From a virus: 30,626 nt of DNA. The translations under genes and the position numbers were made by a program. The notes beneath the pieces are model-generated. The model did not search any database and had not been told where the DNA came from. It worked only from the letters and a program-made list of their open reading frames with translations. Location of the stretch: IMG/VR virus record IMGVR_UViG_3300030333_003379, positions 1-30,626 of that record; one strand, written 5' to 3'. Below, piece after piece: positions 5,043 to 18,115 of the stretch (positions are counted from its first letter, which is position 1; the number at the start of each line of letters is the position of its first letter).

Positions 5043-5051
5043 GGGATGGGG

Positions 5052-6512
5052 ATGCTAATGGGAACAAGATCAACCGACTTTACGCACATTGCTGCGTCTT
5101 GTCGCCAAGCATACAATGGTATCAGGCGACCATCGGTTGTTCTTGAGTCATGTTTCAACATGAACCAAGGAGAGATTGTTGAGTATATTCGATTCTTCTA
5201 TCAAGATGATAGAGTGGATTACAGATTGACTGATGAGGATTTGAGAGAGATATTCTACCTTCTCACAGATGTGTATCCAGAAGAAGTGCATGAGGATCCA
5301 GACCTTATCCAAATACTATCGAACCTATCAGAGCAGATTGAGAGTAAAGCATCATTCACTCGCATTCATTCATTGATGAAAGGTATGCTTGATGCAGATA
5401 ACAACAACATCCGGGCAATGCAGATGAGATCTATACTGACTCGTTTGATACCAAGAGATGCTTATTGGGTCATCCTTCGTATGCAGAGGAAAGCAAACCC
5501 ATTCAAGCGCAGAGATGTAATCATGGCTCTAGCAAATGTATTCAATATACCAAGTGTGAGATTGACTCACGCATCATCCTTCATGGATTTACCAACGATA
5601 GCCAAGCATCTCATAGAAGGAAAGGACATAGCAACAACACCCGTCATTGGTGATAAGATGCTGATGCCATTACCTGTGAGATGGACAGAGGCAGGTTTGC
5701 CATTTACTGAAACATATCTTGAGGTCATTCGTGGTGAAAGATTGACTCTCCATACAGAGGAATTGGATAAGAATACATCATTCACTATGGTGCTAGATCC
5801 AAATGGTCAGGAGGTCACGAAGGAGGCAGTAAAGGATGTTAGTCAATTTCTGCCTAATGGTATTTACACAATCGAATATGTTCCAAAGGATGATTTTCCT
5901 ATTACTGTGGTTGATGTGCTACTTTGTGATAGTGTTCAAGACAGTCCTTTCTCACAACGCAGGGAGTGGCTTGAGGAAATACTACCAGATATGTTCCTCA
6001 AACCCATGGTTCATGTGCGTAATCCTTCCGAAATGAAGCGAAAATGTCCTAAAAATGGTATTACATTCTTACACAATGGAGATGCGATTGTGGATTACAC
6101 AAACCCACGCTCATCTATTGTAAGATACACCACGAAAGCCACAGGAGATGTGTTCCGGGTAATTGGTGGTGTGTGGCAGCATCAAGATGGTAGAGGATTA
6201 GTATTGAGTGGGTGGCAGGTTGCTGCTCGTGACGGTATTGATGGCTACTATGAGGTTGGTGTAATACAGGCAGAGCCAGATCTAGAGAAGCAACTTCGTG
6301 ATAGAGTGCAGAAGGCAAAGGCTCTGGAGGGAGAGATGGCTCTAATGGTTGGGCCGACATTTGTTCAAGTGGATGTTCACTATGCTGATTACGATGATAG
6401 AGGAATTATCATCCAAGGAGTCATTACAGATATTATCAGCAATGCAGGTATTTCTGATGTAGTTCCTGTGGAGGAAGTCGAGTGGTTGGTGGGTGATGAT
6501 GGAGAAAGATGA
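5052..6512 (+). CDS. ATP-dependent DNA ligase homologue lacking catalytic motifs (pseudo-ligase)
   Basis: The fold follows archaeal ATP-dependent DNA ligases (numbering from an ATG at 5046). Residues about 1-190 form a helical DNA-binding domain (RDAYWVILRMQRKANPF...IMALANVFNIP; DLPTIAKHL). A nucleotidyltransferase-like domain follows, with the pre-motif MLMPLPVRW. PFSQRREWLEEIL (301-313) matches the conserved PLSERRxxLEEIL. An OB-like end has RVIGGVWQHQDGRG...GYYEVGVI. Where motif I (KxDGxR, adenylated lysine) belongs, the protein reads VIRGER (227-232). Motif IV (EGxxxK) reads NGITFL (337-342), and the WLKxK of motif V has no match. At least three key positions are changed, so adenylyl transfer is unlikely. 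It may be a structural or DNA-binding derivative. The start at 5052 is preferred because GAGGG lies 6 bases upstream; 5046 and 5058 are alternatives. Confidence 0.65.
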   Translation: MLMGTRSTDFTHIAASCRQAYNGIRRPSVVLESCFNMNQGEIVEYIRFFYQDDRVDYRLTDEDLREIFYLLTDVYPEEVHEDPDLIQILSNLSEQIESKASFTRIHSLMKGMLDADNNNIRAMQMRSILTRLIPRDAYWVILRMQRKANPFKRRDVIMALANVFNIPSVRLTHASSFMDLPTIAKHLIEGKDIATTPVIGDKMLMPLPVRWTEAGLPFTETYLEVIRGERLTLHTEELDKNTSFTMVLDPNGQEVTKEAVKDVSQFLPNGIYTIEYVPKDDFPITVVDVLLCDSVQDSPFSQRREWLEEILPDMFLKPMVHVRNPSEMKRKCPKNGITFLHNGDAIVDYTNPRSSIVRYTTKATGDVFRVIGGVWQHQDGRGLVLSGWQVAARDGIDGYYEVGVIQAEPDLEKQLRDRVQKAKALEGEMALMVGPTFVQVDVHYADYDDRGIIIQGVITDIISNAGISDVVPVEEVEWLVGDDGER

Positions 6513-6861
6513 TCTTACTCTGTTGCTCATAGCACAGAATGCTCGGATGAGGATTGCCTCACGATTGACCACGAAGCACAAGACAGGATACCAGATAAGA
6601 CCTGAATGTGATTTGTTTGGTCGTGGTGCTATACCTGCTAATGTGAAGGATTTCCTTGCTCGGCAAGGGCTACCAGCACAGAATAGATACACACAGATCC
6701 CACATCTAAACCGATTACTACGACTCTTAGATCCATATGTTGAGTTCACTAAAGACCCGGAGGGTTTAAGGACTACCGCCAAACACATTGGTTCTCTCCC
6801 TTCTCTGGAAACCCATGAGGATGTAGAGAAGATATTGGGGGTGCTTGAAAATGCTGTTTGA
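6499..6861 (+). CDS. Hypothetical basic protein
   Basis: A protein of about 120 aa whose start overlaps the end of the ligase-like gene. ATG at 6496 or 6499 and GTG at 6493 are all in frame, and a GGTGGG lies just upstream. The sequence is helical and basic (RMRIASRLTTKHKTGYQIRPE) and contains RYTQIPHLNRLLRLLDPYVEF. No family is recognised. Its last 11 bases overlap the next gene, and coupling to the ligase-like gene suggests joint expression. Confidence 0.55.
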   Translation: MEKDDLTLLLIAQNARMRIASRLTTKHKTGYQIRPECDLFGRGAIPANVKDFLARQGLPAQNRYTQIPHLNRLLRLLDPYVEFTKDPEGLRTTAKHIGSLPSLETHEDVEKILGVLENAV

Positions 6862-7431: not shown

Positions 7432-7455
7432 TTATACACTACCCCCTATTGGGGT
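7432..7455 (+). promoter_or_regulatory. Candidate promoter for the replisome genes with ACCCC/GGGGT inverted repeat
   Basis: The gap 7424-7477 holds TTATACA (7432-7438) followed by ACCCC-CTATT-GGGGT (7441-7455), a perfect 5-bp inverted repeat with a 5-base spacer. A clear ribosome-binding site, CCGGAGG (7464-7470), lies 7 bases before the ATG at 7478, so this transcript probably has a short leader. The position, between TATA box and expected start site, suits an operator. The repeat could also form a small hairpin in RNA. Confidence 0.5.
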
Positions 7456-7477
7456 GACTACTACCGGAGGAAATGAT

Positions 7478-8437
7478 ATGGCACAATTATGGCTCAAGCA
7501 TAGACCTGATACTCTATCCCACATGGTGGGATTAGATAGCATCAAAGCAGATGCACCTAATTGGGTTGCATATGAGAATAACAAGTATGTTCTCAAGTGT
7601 GGTGGAGTTATTTTCAATGGGCCACCCGGAACAGGTAAAACATCTGCTTCTCGTGCTATTGCTAAGGATCACTTAGGGGCAGCGTTTGAGGCAAACTACC
7701 ATGAGTTCAACGCCTCCGATGAAAGAGGAATACAATTCATTCGTGATAGGCTCAAAGGATTGGCACAACAAAAGGCAACTAATTCACCCTTCAAAATTAT
7801 CAATTTGGATGAGGCTGATGGTTTAACACGAGATGCACAGGATGCACTACGACAAATCATTGAGCAAACTAGCACACATACACTATGGATTCTAACCTGT
7901 AATAGAATCAGTAAAATTATACCAGCCTTGAGATCTAGGCTACCATCATATTCATTCAAACCTATTGAGTCGGATGAGGCTCAAGGGTTCTTAGAGCGTG
8001 TAATCGAGATTGAAGGATTCCCAACTGAATGGATTAGCCTTATTCCTTCTTTGATTGAGGGTAAGAAGGGCGACCTTCGTGCTTGCCTCAAGACAATGCA
8101 GATATGCGACCCGAAAGACCCGGATGGGCTACTAGACCACCTATCAGATTCACATGATGCCATAGACCAACTCTATGAAGCCATAGATACAGAGGACTTT
8201 GGTGATGCAATGGAATGTGCAGAAACCATTGTAGCAGAAGGTTTGAGCAGAGATGATGTTATCTCTACCTTACATGGTAACTTACTCACACAATACAAAG
8301 AGAACAACCTATCGTTAGGTGTTGTTCTCAAACGCACATTGATTCTAGGTCAATGGGCAGCAAAATCACCAGATTGGACTTCTGGTGATCTCCTATTCCT
8401 CCATGCTATGATTGGAGATTATTACAACAGAGGTTGA
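7478..8437 (+). CDS. rfcS: Replication factor C small subunit (sliding clamp loader)
   Basis: A 319-aa AAA+ ATPase that loads the PCNA ring onto primed DNA. It shows the RFC-box start LWLKHRPDTLSHMVG, Walker A GPPGTGKT (residues 48-55), NASDERG, Walker B INLDEAD (108-114), sensor 1 LTCN (139-142) and the arginine-finger region LRSRL (151-155), where the usual SRC reads SRL. A helical C-terminal collar domain follows. The length matches archaeal RFC small subunits. No large subunit is present in this window, so it either works as a homomer or uses the host large subunit. The start at 7478 has a GGAGG 7 bases upstream; in-frame alternatives further up lie inside the inverted repeat. It heads the replisome block. 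Confidence 0.9.
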   Translation: MAQLWLKHRPDTLSHMVGLDSIKADAPNWVAYENNKYVLKCGGVIFNGPPGTGKTSASRAIAKDHLGAAFEANYHEFNASDERGIQFIRDRLKGLAQQKATNSPFKIINLDEADGLTRDAQDALRQIIEQTSTHTLWILTCNRISKIIPALRSRLPSYSFKPIESDEAQGFLERVIEIEGFPTEWISLIPSLIEGKKGDLRACLKTMQICDPKDPDGLLDHLSDSHDAIDQLYEAIDTEDFGDAMECAETIVAEGLSRDDVISTLHGNLLTQYKENNLSLGVVLKRTLILGQWAAKSPDWTSGDLLFLHAMIGDYYNRG

Positions 8438-8441
8438 GAAA

Positions 8442-9788
8442 ATGTCGGAAAGAGAAATTGGAAACGAATGCCTAAGTGAAGCGAAGCAAATACTCGGTCT
8501 GGAAACAGACAAAGAGGTTCAGGTTGCCTTTGGTTCATGGATGAAAGAAAACTTCACAGAGATGTGGTCAGATGCTGAAAGTAATCTAGACAATCTTGAA
8601 GATGAAGATTACAATCACTTTGCAGATTTGTATGTCTGTGCTATTGGCCGTAGTGGAGGCTCATCCGGGGGCGGTAGTGGCACAGAATGGGTTGGTATGT
8701 TACTAGGCTTTGAACGCAGATTCGATATGATGGAGAAGAAGCGTAACATGGCTATTGATGTGGCTACTGCTGATCTAGGTCTTGCTATCAAGAATGGTTT
8801 CAATTACAATGGTAAGAAGTGGGGCATTGGTCGTGCTTATGCAGAAGATGGTGTTTGGAAGGTTGAACACTCTGCTGGAACATTCATTTCAAAGGAGAAG
8901 GCTGACGCTAATCCTAATTGGCTTGTCCACATCAATGAGAGAATCAAGATTGCAGTAATGAAGTCCGATAATACACCGGGCATGATCTACGGTATCAAAT
9001 CTATCTGGGTATTCCATGGTAATACCAAAGAGAAGTTCCTTTCAGAAGGCCCACGCACAGTTACCCTTGAGGGTGCATGGGATGCAGCCAAGGTTGATTT
9101 TGACCTATGGCGACCTATCACAGTTCGTGGTGAAATGGATGAAGAAGGATACAACGGTGCTGGCCCCACTCTAACGGTTGGCAATCCTAATGTTGTCTAT
9201 GGTATTGATTGGGTCGAAGAAGGTCGTAAGCGTGAGGCTGCGTCTGCTCTATTCAATCCAGAACAATACTTGACTACCACAGGTGATGCTTGTATCAATC
9301 TCAAAGATATCATTGACTACCATGAGGACAACAAGACAGAAGCATATGTGGATAGAAATGGTGTTCAACGCTACAATGGCGCACTCGTGTGTGTCGTTGG
9401 TGGTGTAATGGATATCAACCATGAAGGCCGTGAATCCCAATGGGATCCAACAGGTCGTGACTTCTATCTATCAATCAGCAATCAACTACTACGCAGAGAG
9501 AATCCAAATGCTAGAGTCGGTGTGAAGGTATCAGGTATTCTTCACGATGACTTCCATGGCATGGAGATGAAGAAGAATGGTGAGTGGACACGCTTTGCTC
9601 GTGGCTCTCGTATCTGGGTTGTTGGTCGAACCAATGTGTATCAGACCACAGACGGTGAAACCAGAGCCAATGTTGAAGCCGTTGGTATCTATGCAGTTCC
9701 TAAGAAATCTATTCCATACCAAGAGCCATCTGATGAGTCCAATGATTTGGGCAACTTAGGTGGCTTCGGTGTTGGGGGTGATTTGTGA
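8442..9788 (+). CDS. Probable ssDNA-binding (OB-fold, RPA-like) protein
   Basis: A 448-aa protein from the ATG at 8442 (GAGG 8 bases upstream). The acidic helical N-terminus leads to a Ser/Gly linker SGGSSGGGSG (residues 71-80). Long beta-rich segments follow (GIKSIWVFHGNT; NGALVCVVGGVMDIN; NARVGVKVSGILHD; RGSRIWVVGRTNVYQT) that look like tandem OB folds. The end is a Gly/acidic flexible tail (SDESNDLGNLGGFGVGGDL), like the partner-binding tails of SSBs. The position between the clamp loader and the RecA-fold ATPase supports an SSB role. No signature motif proves it; the alternative is an unknown replication accessory factor. Confidence 0.5.
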   Translation: MSEREIGNECLSEAKQILGLETDKEVQVAFGSWMKENFTEMWSDAESNLDNLEDEDYNHFADLYVCAIGRSGGSSGGGSGTEWVGMLLGFERRFDMMEKKRNMAIDVATADLGLAIKNGFNYNGKKWGIGRAYAEDGVWKVEHSAGTFISKEKADANPNWLVHINERIKIAVMKSDNTPGMIYGIKSIWVFHGNTKEKFLSEGPRTVTLEGAWDAAKVDFDLWRPITVRGEMDEEGYNGAGPTLTVGNPNVVYGIDWVEEGRKREAASALFNPEQYLTTTGDACINLKDIIDYHEDNKTEAYVDRNGVQRYNGALVCVVGGVMDINHEGRESQWDPTGRDFYLSISNQLLRRENPNARVGVKVSGILHDDFHGMEMKKNGEWTRFARGSRIWVVGRTNVYQTTDGETRANVEAVGIYAVPKKSIPYQEPSDESNDLGNLGGFGVGGDL

Positions 9789-10999
9789 TGAGTGGCACAG
9801 GATTTTTAGATGGCTTTGAGCCAAAGAAGGGTAACTTTGAACCTGCCCCAAAGGGTAGTAAGAAGAAGAAGGAAACTAAGGCTAAGAAAGAGCCTAAGCA
9901 GCAGAAGATCGCAGAGCCTGTGGTCGAAGGCACTCAAGTTCCTTCTGATGACTCCTTTGAGGCAGACAATGAGAAAGAAGCATCTGCGCTAAAGGCAGCG
10001 AAAGCAAAGGTCAAGGGTCAAGAACAGGCTATGGCTAGTGTTGGTCTGCCTAATGCTAATTCTGCTATTCAGCGTATGATTCAATCTGCTCGTGTGCAAA
10101 TGCCACCAGAACACAACTTCGTTCTCTGTGGTATCTCTGGCCCTCCAAAGTCAGGTAAGAGTGGTGGTGTGCTTGATAGTCGCACCAAAGAGGAAATTAA
10201 GAATGGTGCAGAGATTGCTCACCTTGACTTCGATATGGGTGGTATCTCAACGGTATCTGCTCACCATGCAGGTAATCCGGGTATTCTAGTATTCAATCCA
10301 TGGGAGTTCAACTATGATCCAGAAACAACTGATTCGTATGACTTCCCTGCTACATTCCAAAAGGTAATCAATTTGCTAAAGGGTCTATTGGCTCAAGTGG
10401 AATATCAGAGAGCATACTATGCAGAGCATGGTAAAATGCCTAAGCCTTATCTCAAAACTGTGGTGTTTGATGGTGCTGACCAATGGTTGCACATCTGTGA
10501 AACGGTGATGAAGATTGAGGATCTTGAATTGGGTGTTGATGGTCTTGATGCAGCAGTATATCTGCGCCAACATGAGAAGGGTGACGCTAAGAAAAAGAGT
10601 GTTAGCCGATTCAATTGGAATCTAAGGACTATTCGATATCAAACTGCTATCCACCTATTGCGTGAATTGTGCCGATTGGGTGTCCATTGCTATGTGATTA
10701 CACACATGAAGCCCGGATATGATAGCACAGGCAATGAGATTGCAGGTGCTGATAAACCAAAGTGGCACTCTGATACAGAAGGACAACTACAACAGGTCGT
10801 CTATACTGAATTAGAAGAAGAACGCAATGAAGTCGGTGAATTGACGGGTGTTGTTCGTGCATACGGTGTGGTTGTTGCTAACCGCACTAGCCTTGCATCC
10901 CCAGAGCGATTCTTGATCTTTGAGCGTAACTCTGATGGTGGTGTATGGCATGGTTGGCCGGGTATTGCAGAAGGAGATTTCACAGGGGGTGCTGAATGA
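9788..10999 (+). CDS. RecA-superfamily ATPase (RadA/Sak4-like)
   Basis: A 403-aa protein whose ATG overlaps the previous stop by one base. The first 80 residues are Lys-rich and likely disordered (KGSKKKKETKAKKEPKQQK). The RecA-type core has Walker A GPPKSGKS (118-125), a strand LDFDMGG, Walker B TVVFDGAD (224-231) and a sensor-like strand CYVITHMK. This is the layout of phage Sak4 and related RadA-like recombination ATPases, which work with SSB-type proteins in annealing or strand exchange. The SSB-like gene lies directly upstream, which fits. The usual DNA-binding HhH domain of cellular RadA is not seen. Family placement between Sak4 and other RecA-fold ATPases needs a profile search. Confidence 0.7.
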   Translation: MSGTGFLDGFEPKKGNFEPAPKGSKKKKETKAKKEPKQQKIAEPVVEGTQVPSDDSFEADNEKEASALKAAKAKVKGQEQAMASVGLPNANSAIQRMIQSARVQMPPEHNFVLCGISGPPKSGKSGGVLDSRTKEEIKNGAEIAHLDFDMGGISTVSAHHAGNPGILVFNPWEFNYDPETTDSYDFPATFQKVINLLKGLLAQVEYQRAYYAEHGKMPKPYLKTVVFDGADQWLHICETVMKIEDLELGVDGLDAAVYLRQHEKGDAKKKSVSRFNWNLRTIRYQTAIHLLRELCRLGVHCYVITHMKPGYDSTGNEIAGADKPKWHSDTEGQLQQVVYTELEEERNEVGELTGVVRAYGVVVANRTSLASPERFLIFERNSDGGVWHGWPGIAEGDFTGGAE

Positions 11000-11778
11000 T
11001 GGTATCCTTTGTAATCAAGCAACAGAATCTTTCTCACTTCCTCAACTCGTTTTCGGGTATGAGTGATATTGTGCTAAACATCACAAACGATGGAGTATCT
11101 GCTTCTGGAACAATGGAGAGATCATTCTTCATCAAGAAGAATGTGGAATGGCGTGAAGGAGAATCTTGTGAAGAAGAAGGAAACCTTGCTATTGGACAAC
11201 TAGAATTATTCAAATCACTTCTAAGTGGTGCGGGTAGCACACTCACTATCAAAATCGAAGATGATACTATCCACATTTCAGGAGATAACCTTTCGTTCTC
11301 TCTACCCCCTATTGCTGATGCACATTCGCAGCAGGGTGTCGAAGTGGTTGGTAACATGATTGATGAGGCTCAAGGCTCATGGGAGAAGTTCGGAGATGCT
11401 ACTCTGGATTACAACCTTACCTTTGAGGCAAAGGATTTCCAAGACCTGCGTAATGTGGGTAAAGCAATTCAACAGGGCGCACTTTATTCTGTTGAAGTGG
11501 ATAAGACACAACTTATCCTCACAGTAGTGCGTGATCAGATTCGTGTAGTCAAGGAATTGACCTATGGAGAGTTCTCATCATCACCAGATGATACTACTAT
11601 CCTGTGGTTTGGTAAGTGGCTAATGGATGCTCTCAAGGCTATGCCGGGCAAGGGAACAATCCATGTGTATGGGGGCGAAGATTCACCATTGATTATTCGT
11701 CACGAAGCACCAGACAATGAAGCATGGGGAACACTATGCGTCATTGCACCCCGGCAAGAGTCGGGGGATGAAGCGTGA
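10999..11778 (+). CDS. pcn: PCNA-like sliding clamp
   Basis: A 259-aa protein. An ATG at 10996 is equally in frame; 10999 is chosen because GGGGGTG lies 7 bases upstream. The two-domain beta pattern fits PCNA. Domain 1 has SDIVLNITNDGVSASGTMERSFF. A linker follows (LSFSLPPIADAH), then domain 2 with EAKDFQDLRNVGKAIQQG and a last strand block GEDSPLIIRHEA, matching the family 'PL.I' end. It would form a ring that tethers PolB and other partners. The genes for loader and polymerase flank it, so the module is complete. The length is close to the usual 245-260 aa. Confidence 0.8.
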   Translation: MVSFVIKQQNLSHFLNSFSGMSDIVLNITNDGVSASGTMERSFFIKKNVEWREGESCEEEGNLAIGQLELFKSLLSGAGSTLTIKIEDDTIHISGDNLSFSLPPIADAHSQQGVEVVGNMIDEAQGSWEKFGDATLDYNLTFEAKDFQDLRNVGKAIQQGALYSVEVDKTQLILTVVRDQIRVVKELTYGEFSSSPDDTTILWFGKWLMDALKAMPGKGTIHVYGGEDSPLIIRHEAPDNEAWGTLCVIAPRQESGDEA

Positions 11779-14129
11779 TTATTGAGGCACTAGAGCAAGC
11801 AGATTCAATGGATATCTTTCTCCGTTACCGTGATGGTTCATCACAAATCATGGAGAAGATAATTGAAGGTGTTGAACCTTACTTCTTTGTCCGTATGGAG
11901 GATATCGAAGATATATTGACTAGGTTTGAAACATCAGGTTTGCAGTATGGTGTTTGCTATGAAACAGGTGGCTATTGGGCTATCAACAAAGATGACCCAG
12001 AAACCCCTATTGAATTGATGAAGATTACCTGTAACAAAACATCTGATGTTAGACGACTTCGTGATCTAGCAATGGAAACATGGGAAGCGGATATTGACTT
12101 CAAAGACCGATACTTGATGGATAACATTCCTTTGGGTGAGATGCCCAATTGGTATGATAACATGGTAAGGGCGGGAGGATTCGATCTTGAATGGAATCAA
12201 GATGAGGAAATTACTGCTATGGGTTTCACCACAGATGGTGAGAAAATCCACCAATGGTCTTGGCATCCAGATGCCGACATTAGGGTAACAGCCTTTTCAA
12301 CAACAATGTATTCGTTTATCTTTGATAATGAAAAGGATATGCTCATCCATTTTGCTGATTACTTCAAGGACTTAGATCCAGACATTATTACTACATGGTC
12401 AGGTAATCGTGCTGATTGGCCGATGATATACAAACGATACAGGTTTCATGGATTGGACTTAGATTGGTTATCAGCCATCCCTAACCGCCAATCTGGTATG
12501 ACCCCTCCCATGAAGCATCTACCACGCTCTGGTGTGTATAACGAAGGCACACAGGTCGTATTGGGGCGTTTTACCCTTGACCTTGCAGACAGGAATCACG
12601 GCTTTGAGAGAGTATGGAGAGATAGTGGTAATGGTCAATTGGGAGATAGGAGATTAGGCTCTGTCGCTCAAGAGGCATTCCCCGACAATCCAGAATGGTG
12701 GAAAGTGGACTTTGAGAATGACCCAGAGTTAGAAGGTAAGTGCGATAACCATCACGATCTATGGATGAATCATTTCGATAAGTTCCTTGAATACCATCGT
12801 GGAGATGTGCTGCTAACCGACAGGTTAGACCGAGCATACCATGTTGGTCGGTTCTTCTCGGCATTACAGGAGGTTTGTGGTGTATCATTCAAGTCCGTTT
12901 TTACAGTTAGTAAGTTCGCTCGTGGGCAACTACGAAGGCGTGATAAGTTCAAAGCACCAACAACCAACTACAATGCTCTCAAGGAGGGCTATCCGGGTGG
13001 CTTCGTTTCTAAGCCCAAAGGTGGCAGACACGCTAATGTTGGTGTATTCGATTATCGTGCTATGTATGCTGAAATACAGAGGAATGAGAACATCAGTCGA
13101 GAAACTAAGCGCAATGGGCCGGGGCCAGCAATCAAGGAATTACCTAATGGAACATTCTGGTATCAAGGTAAAACAGGTGTATTGCCTCAACTACAAATGG
13201 ATCTAGCAGATGCCCGTAACAAGGCAAAGGCACAGATGAAGAAGCATAAGCCCGGTAGTAATGAGTATGCGGGATTCAATGCTTTGCAGTTAGCGTATAA
13301 GAGAGCAGCAGCGTCTTGCTATGGCCTGATGGGAACAGAGGGTCATGGTGAAGCAGACAGAGATGTTGCATCCACTATTACATTCATGGGGCGTAGCCTT
13401 ACATCACGACTAATGGAGATTTGTGGTGAAATGGGATATGACCCGTTAGCAGGTCATACGGATAGCGCATACATTGGTATCGGTGATGCCGATGGAGAGG
13501 CTATTGCTAAGGAATTGACTAAGCGCATTCAAGACGAGTTCTCTGGCGACAGGTATGTGGTCGAATATGAGAAATTGATGAAGTATTGGGTAGCCCACGA
13601 TGATAAGAAGAATCGTAACTTTGGGTGGACTATCTGGCCGAAAGAAGGATTGCATTGCACAGGATTTGAATTGAAGAAAAGTAATGTAGCCAAGATCACA
13701 AAGCAAGTTCAAGAGCAAGCATTCATTGCTCTCTGCCGAGATAATGCAACTAGAAAGGAAATAGATGATATTGTCTTTGGTGCTATCACAAAAGCCAGAA
13801 ATGGCAATTTGGATAAGAGGCTAATTGTAATGCGCTCAAGGTTGGGCAAGAACCCAGAATCATACGGCAACCAAGGAGGATTTCAAGGTGCAGCCAAGCG
13901 TTATAATCAAAAGAATCCAAACAAGTTCGTGGCGGGTGAGGGCGTTCCTCACATTTACACCACGAAAGGTATGGAGGCATTCAAGACAGATGAGGAACGG
14001 GAATCTTTGAGCGTTGATTGGACAACAGTAATAGCCAAGCAAATCATAGCCCCTGTTGCGCTCATTTACGATGCTATGGGTTGGGAACAACCCGATGCTT
14101 CTGGGGCGAGAGCGAAGCCGTTATTTTAG
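11775..14129 (+). CDS. polB: Family B DNA polymerase with 3'-5' exonuclease
   Basis: A 784-aa replicative polymerase. The GTG start overlaps the clamp gene's stop (GTGA). Exonuclease motifs are FDLEW (Exo I, D137/E139), SGNRADW (Exo II, D214) and YHRGD (Exo III, Y340/D344). Polymerase motif A is FDYRAMY (D426), motif B YKRAAASCYGLMG (508-520) and motif C HTDSA (D563). Motif C has His where most family B enzymes have DTDS, and motif A has RAMY instead of the usual SLYP; the main catalytic aspartates remain. The C-terminus ends AKPLF, a possible clamp-binding peptide. Its place right after PCNA supports a processive replicative role. Confidence 0.92.
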   Translation: MIIEALEQADSMDIFLRYRDGSSQIMEKIIEGVEPYFFVRMEDIEDILTRFETSGLQYGVCYETGGYWAINKDDPETPIELMKITCNKTSDVRRLRDLAMETWEADIDFKDRYLMDNIPLGEMPNWYDNMVRAGGFDLEWNQDEEITAMGFTTDGEKIHQWSWHPDADIRVTAFSTTMYSFIFDNEKDMLIHFADYFKDLDPDIITTWSGNRADWPMIYKRYRFHGLDLDWLSAIPNRQSGMTPPMKHLPRSGVYNEGTQVVLGRFTLDLADRNHGFERVWRDSGNGQLGDRRLGSVAQEAFPDNPEWWKVDFENDPELEGKCDNHHDLWMNHFDKFLEYHRGDVLLTDRLDRAYHVGRFFSALQEVCGVSFKSVFTVSKFARGQLRRRDKFKAPTTNYNALKEGYPGGFVSKPKGGRHANVGVFDYRAMYAEIQRNENISRETKRNGPGPAIKELPNGTFWYQGKTGVLPQLQMDLADARNKAKAQMKKHKPGSNEYAGFNALQLAYKRAAASCYGLMGTEGHGEADRDVASTITFMGRSLTSRLMEICGEMGYDPLAGHTDSAYIGIGDADGEAIAKELTKRIQDEFSGDRYVVEYEKLMKYWVAHDDKKNRNFGWTIWPKEGLHCTGFELKKSNVAKITKQVQEQAFIALCRDNATRKEIDDIVFGAITKARNGNLDKRLIVMRSRLGKNPESYGNQGGFQGAAKRYNQKNPNKFVAGEGVPHIYTTKGMEAFKTDEERESLSVDWTTVIAKQIIAPVALIYDAMGWEQPDASGARAKPLF

Positions 14130-14327: not shown

Positions 14328-15256
14328 TTGTTCACAAACCACCGAAGGCTTACCCCATACCGGGGCATGACGGCCTATTCTCTTGCTATGACCATCATTC
14401 AGGTATGGCGGATAACATTCTATTGAGGATGAGTAAATCCTCTGTAATGTCCGACTATGGCTTCTGCCAACAACAATACTTCATCAAGAGGGCTATTGGT
14501 ATGAAAGAGCCACAGAACGACAATATGATTCGTGGAACGAATGTTCACGACTCTCTAGAGATGTTCTATCAGCGTGTGGACATTGAGAAGGCACAAGAGG
14601 TTGATGATCTCTATTCTTATTTCAGAGATTGCTTTGGTAAGCCACATGAGATTCGCTCGCAGCAAGAACACTTTCTATTGGATGAGGACTTGCACATAGA
14701 CAAATTGTGTGAGGCAGAAGTTCAGCGTTTCAACGCAAGCGACCCAGATTACTTCTTACCCACAGGTAACGAGTTAGAAGTGGATTTAGTTCACGAGATA
14801 GAAGTGGATGGCATACCACAAAAGATACACTTTAACGGATTCATTGATAGGGTATTTACTAACCCTGATGGGTCACTTCACATTCACGAATTGAAAACAG
14901 GAAAGTGGCTCAAGAACGGTAAAGTCAGCAAGATGAAAGAGGAAACCATGCGTAAGGAAATGGCGTTCTATGTCTGGCTGATGAATAAGACCGACCCTTC
15001 ATTGAGGATTACCCATTGGGGTTGGGATCATACAGGCGGGGATGAGATATTCCGCTATGTTGAGCCTGTCCGTGTTCAAGAGATTCAAGCAATGATTGCA
15101 CAAATGCAAGCCTGTGTTCGTTCACACAGGAAATACAAAGGAGATGGGGATGGCTCTGCTTTCGCTCTCCTTCCACCGGGCGCACAATTCCGTATTTGCG
15201 ACCCATGGTGTGCGGTCAAAGAGTTCTGCCCTAGATATGCGGAGGCGGAAATATGA
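14324..15256 (+). CDS. Cas4/RecB-like PD-(D/E)XK nuclease with Fe-S cysteines
   Basis: A 310-aa nuclease. The GTG at 14324 overlaps the upstream stop and lies 7 bases after GGGGGG; ATG at 14309 and 14318 are alternatives. Motifs: C48 in SDYGFCQQ; H75 in GTNVHDSLE; the catalytic strand pair GFIDRV (D175) and HELKTGK (E189, K191); then C292, C296 and C302 near the end (ICDPWCAVKEFCPRY). One N-terminal plus three C-terminal cysteines are the 4Fe-4S arrangement of Cas4 and AddB. No cas1/cas2 or CRISPR array is present, so a role in viral DNA end processing or recombination is more likely than spacer acquisition. It overlaps the methyltransferase by 4 bases. Confidence 0.85.
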   Translation: MIVHKPPKAYPIPGHDGLFSCYDHHSGMADNILLRMSKSSVMSDYGFCQQQYFIKRAIGMKEPQNDNMIRGTNVHDSLEMFYQRVDIEKAQEVDDLYSYFRDCFGKPHEIRSQQEHFLLDEDLHIDKLCEAEVQRFNASDPDYFLPTGNELEVDLVHEIEVDGIPQKIHFNGFIDRVFTNPDGSLHIHELKTGKWLKNGKVSKMKEETMRKEMAFYVWLMNKTDPSLRITHWGWDHTGGDEIFRYVEPVRVQEIQAMIAQMQACVRSHRKYKGDGDGSAFALLPPGAQFRICDPWCAVKEFCPRYAEAEI

Positions 15257-17046
15257 GATACATTAGCCTGTTTAGCGGAATTGAGGCTGCTACTGTTGGT
15301 TGGCATGATTTGGGTTGGGATCCCGTTGTGTTTGCCGATTTCGATGAGTTCCCATCTGCGGTTCTCAACTATCATTATCCACAAATTGAAAATGTGGGAG
15401 ATGTGATGAAACATGAATGGAAACAATACAAAGGAAAATGTGATCTTATTGTCGGAGGAAGCCCTTGCCAATCTTTCTCCGTGGCCGGACAGCGACTTGG
15501 AATGGATGACCCTCGTGGTAACTTGGCCCTCAAGTTCCTCCAAATTATTCGGGATGTTCGACCAAGGTGGTTCATCTATGAAAATGTCCCGGGATTACTG
15601 TCGTCTGGGGGAGGACAAGATTTTGCGACCTTCCTTGGGGAAGTGGCAGAATGCGGGTATGGGTTCGCATACAGAGTTCTTGACGCTCAAAACTTCGGAG
15701 TCCCACAGCGCAGACGAAGGGTGTTCGTTGTCGGACATATTGATGGAGATTGGCGAAGTCCCGCAGCAGTATTATTTGAGTCCACGAGCCTGTTCGGGGA
15801 TTCTAAGCAGAGCAAAGAGGCGGGGAAAAACGCTTCCCTCTTTGCTGGACACGGCTCTAAAGGAACAAGCGAAGAAGCATCAGGAGTGATGTATGAAAAC
15901 CATGCTAGTGATGCTAGAATCACAGAAGCAGGGGATGTTAGTCCTACTGTAAGGGCAAGATTTGGCACAGGCGGAGGTAATGTTCCTCTAGTCAAACACG
16001 AGAATGAGAAAGGTATCATTCATTGTGCCGATGTGGGGCCAGCAATGACGGCTTCTGGGCCACCTTATTCACGCACAGGGCAACAAACCGTTGAAGATGA
16101 AGCATTGGTAGTTCAAGAGCCGATAGCATTTGATTGGAAGAATATCAGATCAACACGCCCATCGGAGGAAAGCACAGACCCATTGACTGTCGAAGGTGGC
16201 ATTGCGATAAATCAGCAAGCACCTATGCACGATCCAGCACCAACTCTTGACGCTTCATATGGCACAGGGGCAGGTATGCGAGCAGGTATTGAGAGGCAGG
16301 TAATTGGTGTCCGACAGGGTAGTGCAGAAGGCTCGTTTGGCACATTTGAGGATTCAGACATAGGTGCGGTATTGAAAGCATCTGGTGGTGTCCTTGGTGG
16401 TGGCTCTGAAACCATCATCACAGAAACATTCACCAAAGGTGGTCATGGTGTCTTTGAACAGAATGAGGATACCCTTGGCACTTTACCAGCCAATGAACAC
16501 AAAGGCGCACATTCACTCATTACTACAAGCGCAGGTGTAGTAACCAAAGGTAACGGTGAAGCATGGGAAACCGATGAAAAGCACATGAGCCTCACAAGTG
16601 GTGGGGGTCAAGCAGGTCAAGGATACCCGGCGGTTCGCCAATCAGTATTCAACATAGATTCTCAAAGTAGCAATTCAATCAAATCAGGCAATCCCAATTC
16701 TGGATCTCAAGAGATAGATAAGGCATCAACTCTCACTACTTTCCCACCAAGCCCAGAGGGTTATCGTGGTGGTAACGCAGTAGTGGCTAGTCATGTAGTT
16801 CGCAGATTAACCCCTATTGAGTGTGAGCGATTGCAAGGATTCCCAGACAACTACACACGAATACCATTCAAGGGTAAGAGTGCAGAGGATTGCCCTAAGA
16901 CACACCGATACAAGGCACTCGGTAACAGTATGGCTGTTCCCGTAATGAAGTGGATTGGAGAGCGTATCCAACAGGTGTCTTTTGTGGTGGATGATATAGA
17001 GGACAGACCTGCTTCAAAGACGACTAAGCAGAAAACATTGTGGTGA
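15253..17046 (+). CDS. dcm: C5-cytosine DNA methyltransferase with repeat-expanded target region
   Basis: A 597-aa enzyme that transfers methyl from SAM to cytosine C5. Motif I is SLFSGIEAA (residues 5-13), motif IV GGSPCQSFS (68-76, catalytic C72), motif VI ENV (110-112) and motif VIII QRRRRV (152-157). Motif IX is RRLTPIECERLQGFP (from 517) and motif X GNSMAVPV (557-564). Between VIII and IX lie about 350 residues, far more than the usual target-recognition region. They are built of about eight loose repeats of the type D..PTL.A...G.G....V. The C-terminus ends KQKTLW. Bases 15300-15890 use codons somewhat differently from the neighbours, a possible sign of separate origin. No cognate restriction enzyme is seen, so it probably protects or marks viral DNA. 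Confidence 0.9.
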   Translation: MRYISLFSGIEAATVGWHDLGWDPVVFADFDEFPSAVLNYHYPQIENVGDVMKHEWKQYKGKCDLIVGGSPCQSFSVAGQRLGMDDPRGNLALKFLQIIRDVRPRWFIYENVPGLLSSGGGQDFATFLGEVAECGYGFAYRVLDAQNFGVPQRRRRVFVVGHIDGDWRSPAAVLFESTSLFGDSKQSKEAGKNASLFAGHGSKGTSEEASGVMYENHASDARITEAGDVSPTVRARFGTGGGNVPLVKHENEKGIIHCADVGPAMTASGPPYSRTGQQTVEDEALVVQEPIAFDWKNIRSTRPSEESTDPLTVEGGIAINQQAPMHDPAPTLDASYGTGAGMRAGIERQVIGVRQGSAEGSFGTFEDSDIGAVLKASGGVLGGGSETIITETFTKGGHGVFEQNEDTLGTLPANEHKGAHSLITTSAGVVTKGNGEAWETDEKHMSLTSGGGQAGQGYPAVRQSVFNIDSQSSNSIKSGNPNSGSQEIDKASTLTTFPPSPEGYRGGNAVVASHVVRRLTPIECERLQGFPDNYTRIPFKGKSAEDCPKTHRYKALGNSMAVPVMKWIGERIQQVSFVVDDIEDRPASKTTKQKTLW

Positions 17047-17053
17047 TGATAAG

Positions 17054-18115
17054 ATGGCGCATATGTTTAGACACTTTCCAAGAGAAGTGGATATGCGTAA
17101 GCGCAAGGTAGTTCATTCGATGGAGGAATTACAACAGTATGTCCAAGCCACTAATGGGGGCGACAACCTTACTACTACTGTCTATGGTTTCAGGGAATTG
17201 AAACCGAGTGGTCACAGAGGGGAGTATAGCACAGCGATCATTCCACACTTCGTAATTGATTTGGATTATGAGAGGGCTATGACGAACCGCACAGTCGAAG
17301 AAGCGGGTGAAAGAACCCTCCATGAAGTCAATATGATTCATCAGCATTTACTCTCCAACGATTGGAAACACGCCATGTTCTTTACAGGTGGTGGTGTCCA
17401 CATTTGGGTCAATCTTGACCGAACATACTATCCAGAGGGGTCGGAAATGTCCGACATATTGGTGGCGGGTAGAAGGATGATTGATGGATGGGTCAAAAAG
17501 TGGGAGTTATCCACTCTAGATCCCGTTGTATCATTCCGACCAGACCGCCACATACGCATTCCTAACACATTCAACTTCAAGCGTGGTGTGTGGGGTATGC
17601 CACTAAAGACAGAGGATTTGGTTGATGGTTGGAACAATATGTTGAAGCGAGCCGCTACTCCGCATGGAGGAATGAATGTCTATGGCACTACCGGGCTTAC
17701 AATGGAGGTTACTAAGAGAGATTCATCACAACCCTTTGACGCAGAGCCTGTTGATTTGAAGATGGAGAAGGTTGGATCAATCTCCGTTCTGCCTTGTTTA
17801 GCAGATGCTGCTTGCCAAAAGGGTGGCAACCCTCCACATGAAGCCCGGATATATCTCACAATGTATCTTCAAGACAGGCTTCGCTCGTTTGCTAGACCAC
17901 CAACTTCATCCAATGTTTCTAACAGTAGTATCGAGAAACAAATTATCACATTCATTACCGATTTGGAGTGGTCTGACTTTGACCACGAAACCACCAAAAC
18001 GCAAGTTCACCATGCCGTAAATCGGCACTACATGAGTCCGTCTTGTCGGACTCTTTACGAGAGAGGCTATTGCCTTGGTCGCTGTCCAATGTATGATGGA
18101 TCTGGAGGAATATGA
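17054..18115 (+). CDS. Archaeo-eukaryotic primase, PriS catalytic domain fused to PriL-like Fe-S domain
   Basis: A 353-aa primase that makes primers for PolB. The AEP core shows FVIDLDYE (metal-binding D69 and D71), the FTGGGVHIWV motif (111-119) and RHIRIPNTFNFK (165-176). After a linker the protein reads SVLPCLADAACQKG with C248, an HEARIYLTMYLQD helix, then YMSPSCRTLYERGYCLGRC with C331, C340 and C344. This Cys order and the PPxxR-like helix match the C-terminal 4Fe-4S domain of the primase large subunit PriL. In cellular archaea the two subunits are usually separate; here they are one compact chain. The start follows the methyltransferase stop by 7 bases. The catalytic call is firm and the PriL part likely. 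Confidence 0.8.
   Translation: MAHMFRHFPREVDMRKRKVVHSMEELQQYVQATNGGDNLTTTVYGFRELKPSGHRGEYSTAIIPHFVIDLDYERAMTNRTVEEAGERTLHEVNMIHQHLLSNDWKHAMFFTGGGVHIWVNLDRTYYPEGSEMSDILVAGRRMIDGWVKKWELSTLDPVVSFRPDRHIRIPNTFNFKRGVWGMPLKTEDLVDGWNNMLKRAATPHGGMNVYGTTGLTMEVTKRDSSQPFDAEPVDLKMEKVGSISVLPCLADAACQKGGNPPHEARIYLTMYLQDRLRSFARPPTSSNVSNSSIEKQIITFITDLEWSDFDHETTKTQVHHAVNRHYMSPSCRTLYERGYCLGRCPMYDGSGGI

Follow-up and report, generated by a model that had tools for sequence, protein, structure and literature searches.

Archaeal/LIG1-type DNA ligases (2cfm, 3gde, 6wbo, 2hiv) are built from a DNA-binding domain, a nucleotidyltransferase domain and an OB-fold domain, in that order. Dead versions are known for many enzymes, and the nucleotidyltransferase fold has been reused without covalent catalysis in the cap-binding domain of snurportin-1, a protein that binds the RNA cap and has no ligase DNA-binding domain. 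Halogranum tailed virus 1 (HGTV-1) encodes a 475-aa ligase (YP_008059398.1) with KVDGYR and EEGIIVK motifs and a strong Pfam match, by its sequence an ordinary enzyme. Magroviruses, an order of abundant marine viruses of archaea whose replication has been described as nearly independent of the host, have also been credited with a ligase: published members (Aoguangviridae, Apasviridae) carry an annotated ATP-dependent DNA ligase (PMC10768690, PMC12999244, PMC7318539), and one published magrovirus ligase with a stated location adjoins the prohead protease (PMC7318539). Here we analyse a stretch of 30,626 nucleotides (the window), the first 30.6 kb of the 99,897-base virus record IMGVR_UViG_3300030333_003379 (G000), in which a gene at 5046..6512 (+) encodes a ligase-like, three-domain protein without the catalytic residues of the class, hereafter the pseudo-ligase.

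The pseudo-ligase shares the three-domain architecture of the archaeal/LIG1-type enzymes and is collinear with them end to end. It keeps the strand-turn-strand of motif I with its glycine, the downstream histidine, and the motif IIIa aspartate with, in most members, the RR that follows; unlike those ligases, it is devoid of the motif I lysine, the motif IV Glu and Lys and the motif V WLKxK, and RxPR is not seen. The HGTV-1 ligase resembles it in length and fold (BFVD hit R4T9C5), but retains KVDGYR and EEGIIVK. The ligase fold as such is well known. What would be new is that a virus group as a whole has fixed a ligase pseudo-enzyme; no report of this was found in the literature searched, where coverage of subscription journals was thin.

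Fold and domain architecture

The frame 5046-6512 (+) is open throughout, with ATG codons at 5046 (488 aa) and 5052 (486 aa) and a stop codon that ends at 6512. An AlphaFold2 (AF2) model of the protein, built on a 21-sequence alignment (pLDDT 85.2, pTM 0.73), was compared with the PDB by Foldseek. Archaeal ATP-dependent ligases came out on top (6wbo, 1.4e-19; 2cfm, 1.6e-19), followed by 3rr5 and 3gde, all four over the whole length with a probability of 1.00 and E-values of about 1e-19 to 4e-18; below them ranked the human ligases IV, III and I, with capping enzymes after those. The TM-scores were 0.45-0.60 and the rmsd values large, which would fit three domains mobile relative to one another. 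Profile comparison by hhalign gave a concordant picture: the alignment of 61 family members matched that of 73 archaeal ligases, taken from genomes and selected partly by their KxDGxR motif, over 459 columns end to end (probability 96.9%, E 1.5e-10), while the ligase profile run in reverse and eight versions with shuffled columns reached a probability of at most 0.3% (E 0.2-0.8) and a control with the alignment of a neighbouring RadA-like protein 0.6%. Model and profile thus place the predicted protein in the ligase fold, and the whole-length likeness to archaeal ATP-dependent ligases that a preliminary description had proposed by eye proved significant in both comparisons.

This relationship escapes simpler searches. 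The single protein had zero matches in Pfam, PHROGs, the PDB (phmmer) and annotated phages (tblastn), and a profile from ten close relatives found nothing in the PDB. No member scanned had a Pfam match above the cut-off, the Pfam ligase model making weak contact with some of the most distant ones, and no cellular relative was found when the family alignment was run against 84,980 prokaryote genomes, at the sensitivity of that tool. An RNA family scan was empty. The family therefore escapes Pfam and PHROGs, yet fold comparison places it immediately.

In the coordinates of P0001, used here for all residue numbers, and with all features on the plus strand, the protein begins with an all-helical domain (residues 5-190; 5064..5621) that AF2 secondary structure and hhalign collinearity mark as the putative equivalent of the ligase DNA-binding domain. 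It holds a conserved acidic stretch, L-[ST]-DEDLREIF..LTD.YPEE, and the conserved arginines R121, R143 and R153. A degenerate nucleotidyltransferase domain (residues 198-360; 5643..6131) and an OB-fold domain (residues 365-480; 6144..6491) follow, both recognised by AF2, Foldseek and hhalign; the order of the three domains, by the same approaches, is that of the archaeal/LIG1-type ligases.

Catalytic motifs and conservation across the family

At the position of motif I (KxDGxR; residues 223-231, LEVIRGERL; 5718..5744) the strand-turn-strand geometry is retained and a valine stands where the lysine would be expected. The segment reads LEV-IRGER, with V225 at or adjoining the lysine position, and hhalign favours a one-residue gap exactly there, so that the lysine is either aligned to V225 or deleted beside it. 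Lysine occupies this column in none of the 61 family members, which have valine or isoleucine (17 each), serine (9), threonine (5) or rarer residues, and just one of the 61 has any lysine in columns 222-227; KxDGxR is present in all 73 archaeal reference ligases, a set chosen partly by that motif. The motif IV position (EGxxxK; residues 335-343, NGITFLHNG; 6054..6080) lacks both Glu and Lys, with neither conserved in columns 335-342 of the family, and the motif V position (WLKxK; residues 356-362, IVRYTTK; 6117..6137) is not conserved, WLKxK being absent and the lysines of columns 356-362 varying among the 61 members. In the OB-fold domain motif VI (RxPR) was not seen, in a region where the local hhalign alignment is gappy.

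Other positions are held strictly. The motif III-equivalent strand (residues 270-276, GIYTIEY; 5859..5879), located by AF2, hhalign and the 61-member alignment, carries an acidic residue, E275, that is E or D in all 61 members, although its pairing with the motif III Glu in hhalign may be off by at least one residue. Within a motif IIIa-like segment (residues 285-304, TVVDVLLCDSVQDSPFSQRR; 5904..5963), found by hhalign and the 61-member alignment, D288 occurs in 60 of 61 members. H234, R303 and D394, the last in the OB-fold domain, are invariant in all 61, as are G373 and the OB-domain glycines G451 and G466 in a 40-sequence non-redundant set. Since H234, R303, D394 and the glycines are kept while the residues of motifs I, IV and V are lost, selection appears to police the fold and not the active site, and, judged from the sequences, adenylation chemistry has very probably been lost.

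The relatives come from successive scans of viral contigs, which yielded 1, 13, 31 and then 57 loci with identity down to about 27-30%, and from a further scan that took the neighbouring RadA-like gene as its anchor and gave 80 loci. A 21-member HMM detects the family in most of these 80, several distant contigs matching at E 1e-10 to 1e-5 in the same place in the gene order. When the RadA-anchored set was restricted to loci with at least 4.2 kb of upstream sequence (n = 53), a 61-sequence HMM found the pseudo-ligase in every one. The gene is under strong purifying selection, with a median dN/dS of 0.067 (Nei-Gojobori, 36 pairs, dS 0.05-1.5).

The absence of motifs I, IV and V, which the preliminary description had noted as VIRGER, NGITFL and a missing WLKxK in a single sequence, is thus common to all 61 members, and alignment with homologues from related viruses, which it had advised, recovered no lysine at the motif I column. 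As these losses are shared by the whole family they are not sequencing errors, as had been argued before, and an error of sequence or frame was rejected as their source. Decay of the gene was rejected as well: the frame noted earlier as intact is open from 5046 to 6512, about 60 distinct intact copies are known, the losses are identical in independent metagenomes, and dN/dS is about 0.07. One contig, L016, does have an in-frame stop (L016:1791-1793) that splits the pseudo-ligase into same-frame open reading frames (ORFs) at 897-1790 and 1794-2357, but set against these data the probability of a decaying gene or a sequence artefact is negligible. In our best reading the loss of adenylation chemistry predates the diversification of the virus group and was fixed anciently. 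Because the related viruses checked all keep the dead form under strong selection, a non-enzymatic job is very probable, and fold, profile comparison, 61 lysine-less members and the low dN/dS together support the earlier suggestion that a full-length ligase homologue without the lysine is kept for a non-catalytic role.

Replication cluster and possible role

The pseudo-ligase holds a fixed place in a replication gene cluster. Small conserved ORFs lie upstream. Downstream, where the genes given with coordinates are all on the plus strand, a 122-aa ORF (6493..6861) that overlaps the 3' end of the pseudo-ligase gene by 20 bases is followed by a 192-aa ORF, the small subunit of the clamp loader replication factor C (RFC; 7454..8437), a candidate single-stranded DNA-binding protein (SSB/RPA-like; 8412..9788; named by position and reading, no library match), the RadA-like P-loop ATPase used as synteny anchor (9785..10999; named by motif, no library match), a sliding clamp-like protein (10996..11778; weak PF00712 match, below the cut-off) and a family B DNA polymerase (PolB; 11775..14129). 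Farther downstream lie genes for two nucleases, one PD-(D/E)XK and one ERCC4, and for a primase that has a PriL-like part. This order is kept in close groups and mostly in distant ones; in a middle group RFC was not detected beside the pseudo-ligase by BLAST. The 122-aa ORF adjoins the pseudo-ligase in most relatives, and its product is a candidate partner. In L003 and L010-L012 an extra 0.6-1.5 kb or so of DNA lies between the two.

The reading that we favour, to which we give an even chance, is that an archaeal/LIG1-type ligase with all three domains lost its chemistry and now serves as a non-catalytic accessory of the replisome. Made beside RFC, the SSB-like and RadA-like proteins, the sliding clamp (PCNA) and PolB, the pseudo-ligase would use its ligase-type clamp fold to grip DNA at nicks or junctions, hold or mark the bound DNA, and then pass it to processing enzymes or to the host ligase, which would do the sealing. 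Several observations weigh against this picture. The pseudo-ligase has a median length of 484 residues, about 77 fewer than the 561 of archaeal ligases, and much of the difference arises in the nucleotidyltransferase domain, in the stretch from motif III to motif IIIa. In the DNA-binding domain the best-conserved stretch (DEDLRE...YPEE) is acidic, and a protein partner would fit it no less well than DNA. Overall, too, the protein is acidic, as are several of its replisome neighbours, and since those neighbours are acidic too we rejected net charge as evidence on DNA binding in either direction. Nor is there a conserved PIP box: PIP-like strings occur in 15 of the 61 members and not at one conserved site, and the clamp docking envisaged in the preliminary description finds no support, at least through a canonical PIP box. 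With the acidic stretch equally allowing protein docking and no conserved PIP box, a job at DNA junctions (gripping, holding or marking, handing on) is put at a shade under even.

The same acidic stretch would find a ready use if the ligase fold were kept purely as a platform, its helical domain binding RFC, PCNA, the product of the 122-aa neighbour or a host factor without touching DNA. Such a scaffold would account for an acidic stretch as the most conserved surface candidate, for the short ORF that overlaps the 3' end and adjoins the gene in most relatives, and for the trimming seen between motifs III and IIIa, close to the active site of a ligase; we nevertheless consider it rather unlikely, as the three ligase domains are retained and collinear, among them the OB domain, which usually serves to close on DNA, and the conserved arginines R121, R143 and R153 remain in the helical domain. 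The pseudo-ligase might instead be the inactive half of a heterodimer and stimulate or redirect a catalytic ligase. Precedents are a solved phage ligase of two subunits (9i5i, described as PR1 phage heterodimeric DNA ligase) and dead paralogues that activate enzymes (PMC5201418). The catalytic partner would be either the host's enzyme or the late ligase-like protein described below, the only other one in the virus, and the latter too lacks the lysine (RPEGKR) and is encoded in the late module, so that a regulatory subunit seems unlikely.

An inhibitor is a further candidate, for a ligase that has lost catalysis but not its clamp fold would make a natural competitive nick binder, competing with or binding the host ligase and so stalling host replication or keeping viral nicks open. 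However, no canonical ligase is seen in the virus, whose lagging-strand synthesis would rely on sealing by the host, and the gene belongs to the replication cluster, not to the host-takeover genes; we regard inhibition as quite improbable. The protein might, finally, still be an active enzyme in which another lysine has taken over adenylation. K317 is the sole strongly conserved lysine (56 of 61 members), and the acidic residue of motif III persists (E275, E or D in every member), but K317, the only strongly conserved candidate in the nucleotidyltransferase domain, is absent from the most distant clade, and the motif IV Glu and Lys and the motif V lysines typical of the enzyme class have gone as well, which makes displaced chemistry very improbable indeed.

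The late ligase-like protein and the virus

The preliminary description had seen no other ligase. This holds for the window, where no second one was found, but not for the whole record: a late gene there codes for another ligase-like domain, and this one does not conserve the lysine either. No canonical ATP (PF01068), NAD (PF01653) or RNA (PF09414) ligase was found in the record, and a 73-sequence ligase HMM run at maximum sensitivity against its other ORFs was negative. Among 34 further records, a good number of which are fragments, a single one (G026) had a PF01068 match over the cut-off, in its late protein; by set, no canonical ATP ligase exceeded it in 21 records or in 13 of 14 more. The weak PF01068 matches in related viruses mostly fall on the late protein or on the pseudo-ligase family; the HGTV-1 ligase, as positive control, scored E 1.2e-27. 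It was such weak matches that first exposed the late protein in the record search.

This protein of about 1160 aa is encoded on the minus strand (58,751-62,224 of G000; L054:4752-8225), between portal-side genes and the prohead protease (L054 3416-4741; named by position and reading) and directly upstream of the latter. Relatives occur in 12 of the 19 records searched, among them every record longer than 65 kb. One of its domains is predicted to fold as a ligase nucleotidyltransferase plus OB (AF2 pLDDT 75.6; Foldseek 4eq5 9.5e-9, 2cfm 1.5e-8); hhalign against ligases was weak (E 0.002, probability 14%), and it was the fold search that settled the likeness. Its fold hits include 3nc0_B and 3gjx_B, which we take to be snurportin-1 chains. 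Its relatives include L279-L355. In the 71 motifs that were scorable, the motif I lysine position holds K in 41 (58%), M in 23, R in three, V in two, and Q and W in one each; in G000 it is R (RPEGKR). A far longer relative, the 1871-aa ORF L269 of record G026, reads WYDGYR, with the lysine replaced by W and DGxR kept.

Magrovirales are tailed viruses of 90-110 kb with opposed replication and virion modules that encode PolB, a primase, PCNA, RFC-S, and ERCC4 and PD-(D/E)XK nucleases (PMC10768690, PMC12999244, PMC10160649). The 99,897-base record agrees with them in size, module layout and gene content, and its late ligase-like gene adjoins the prohead protease gene, as in the published case (PMC7318539). 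The source is probably a marine archaeal magrovirus, a virus of Poseidoniales, an assignment made by gene content, size and layout; by content and layout the published magroviruses are of the same kind. The window has a G+C content of 44%, compared with 31.5% reported for magrovirus YSH_150918. The slot next to the prohead protease, where the published ligase lies, is taken here by the late protein of about 1160 aa and not by the pseudo-ligase of the replication module, and it is probably the gene of this late protein that bears the annotation ATP-dependent DNA ligase in magroviruses already published.

We tentatively raise the possibility, which we judge clearly below even, that Magrovirales as a whole carry two separate ligase-derived proteins without a conserved lysine, and that the fold was recruited twice for non-enzymatic ends and sealing left to the host. 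The replication-cluster protein would then bind junctions, and the protease-adjoining protein would serve virion structure or packaging. If the reading of the pseudo-ligase as a dead ligase fixed across the virus group is right, magroviruses would lose the picture of a complete replication kit with its own ligase, the virus would be predicted to depend on the host ligase, and a natural ligase-shaped module without chemistry would be on offer.

Two further genes of the window deserve mention. The primase (17054-18115) appears to combine a part resembling the small subunit with one at the C terminus that resembles the large subunit (PF04104, E 3e-4, narrowly short of the cut-off). A C5 cytosine methylase (15253-17046; PF00145, E 7e-60) is unusually similar, with up to 84% identity, to segments in otherwise distant viruses, and its position varies between viruses, lying in L009 directly after the pseudo-ligase; it is perhaps a mobile gene within the virus group.
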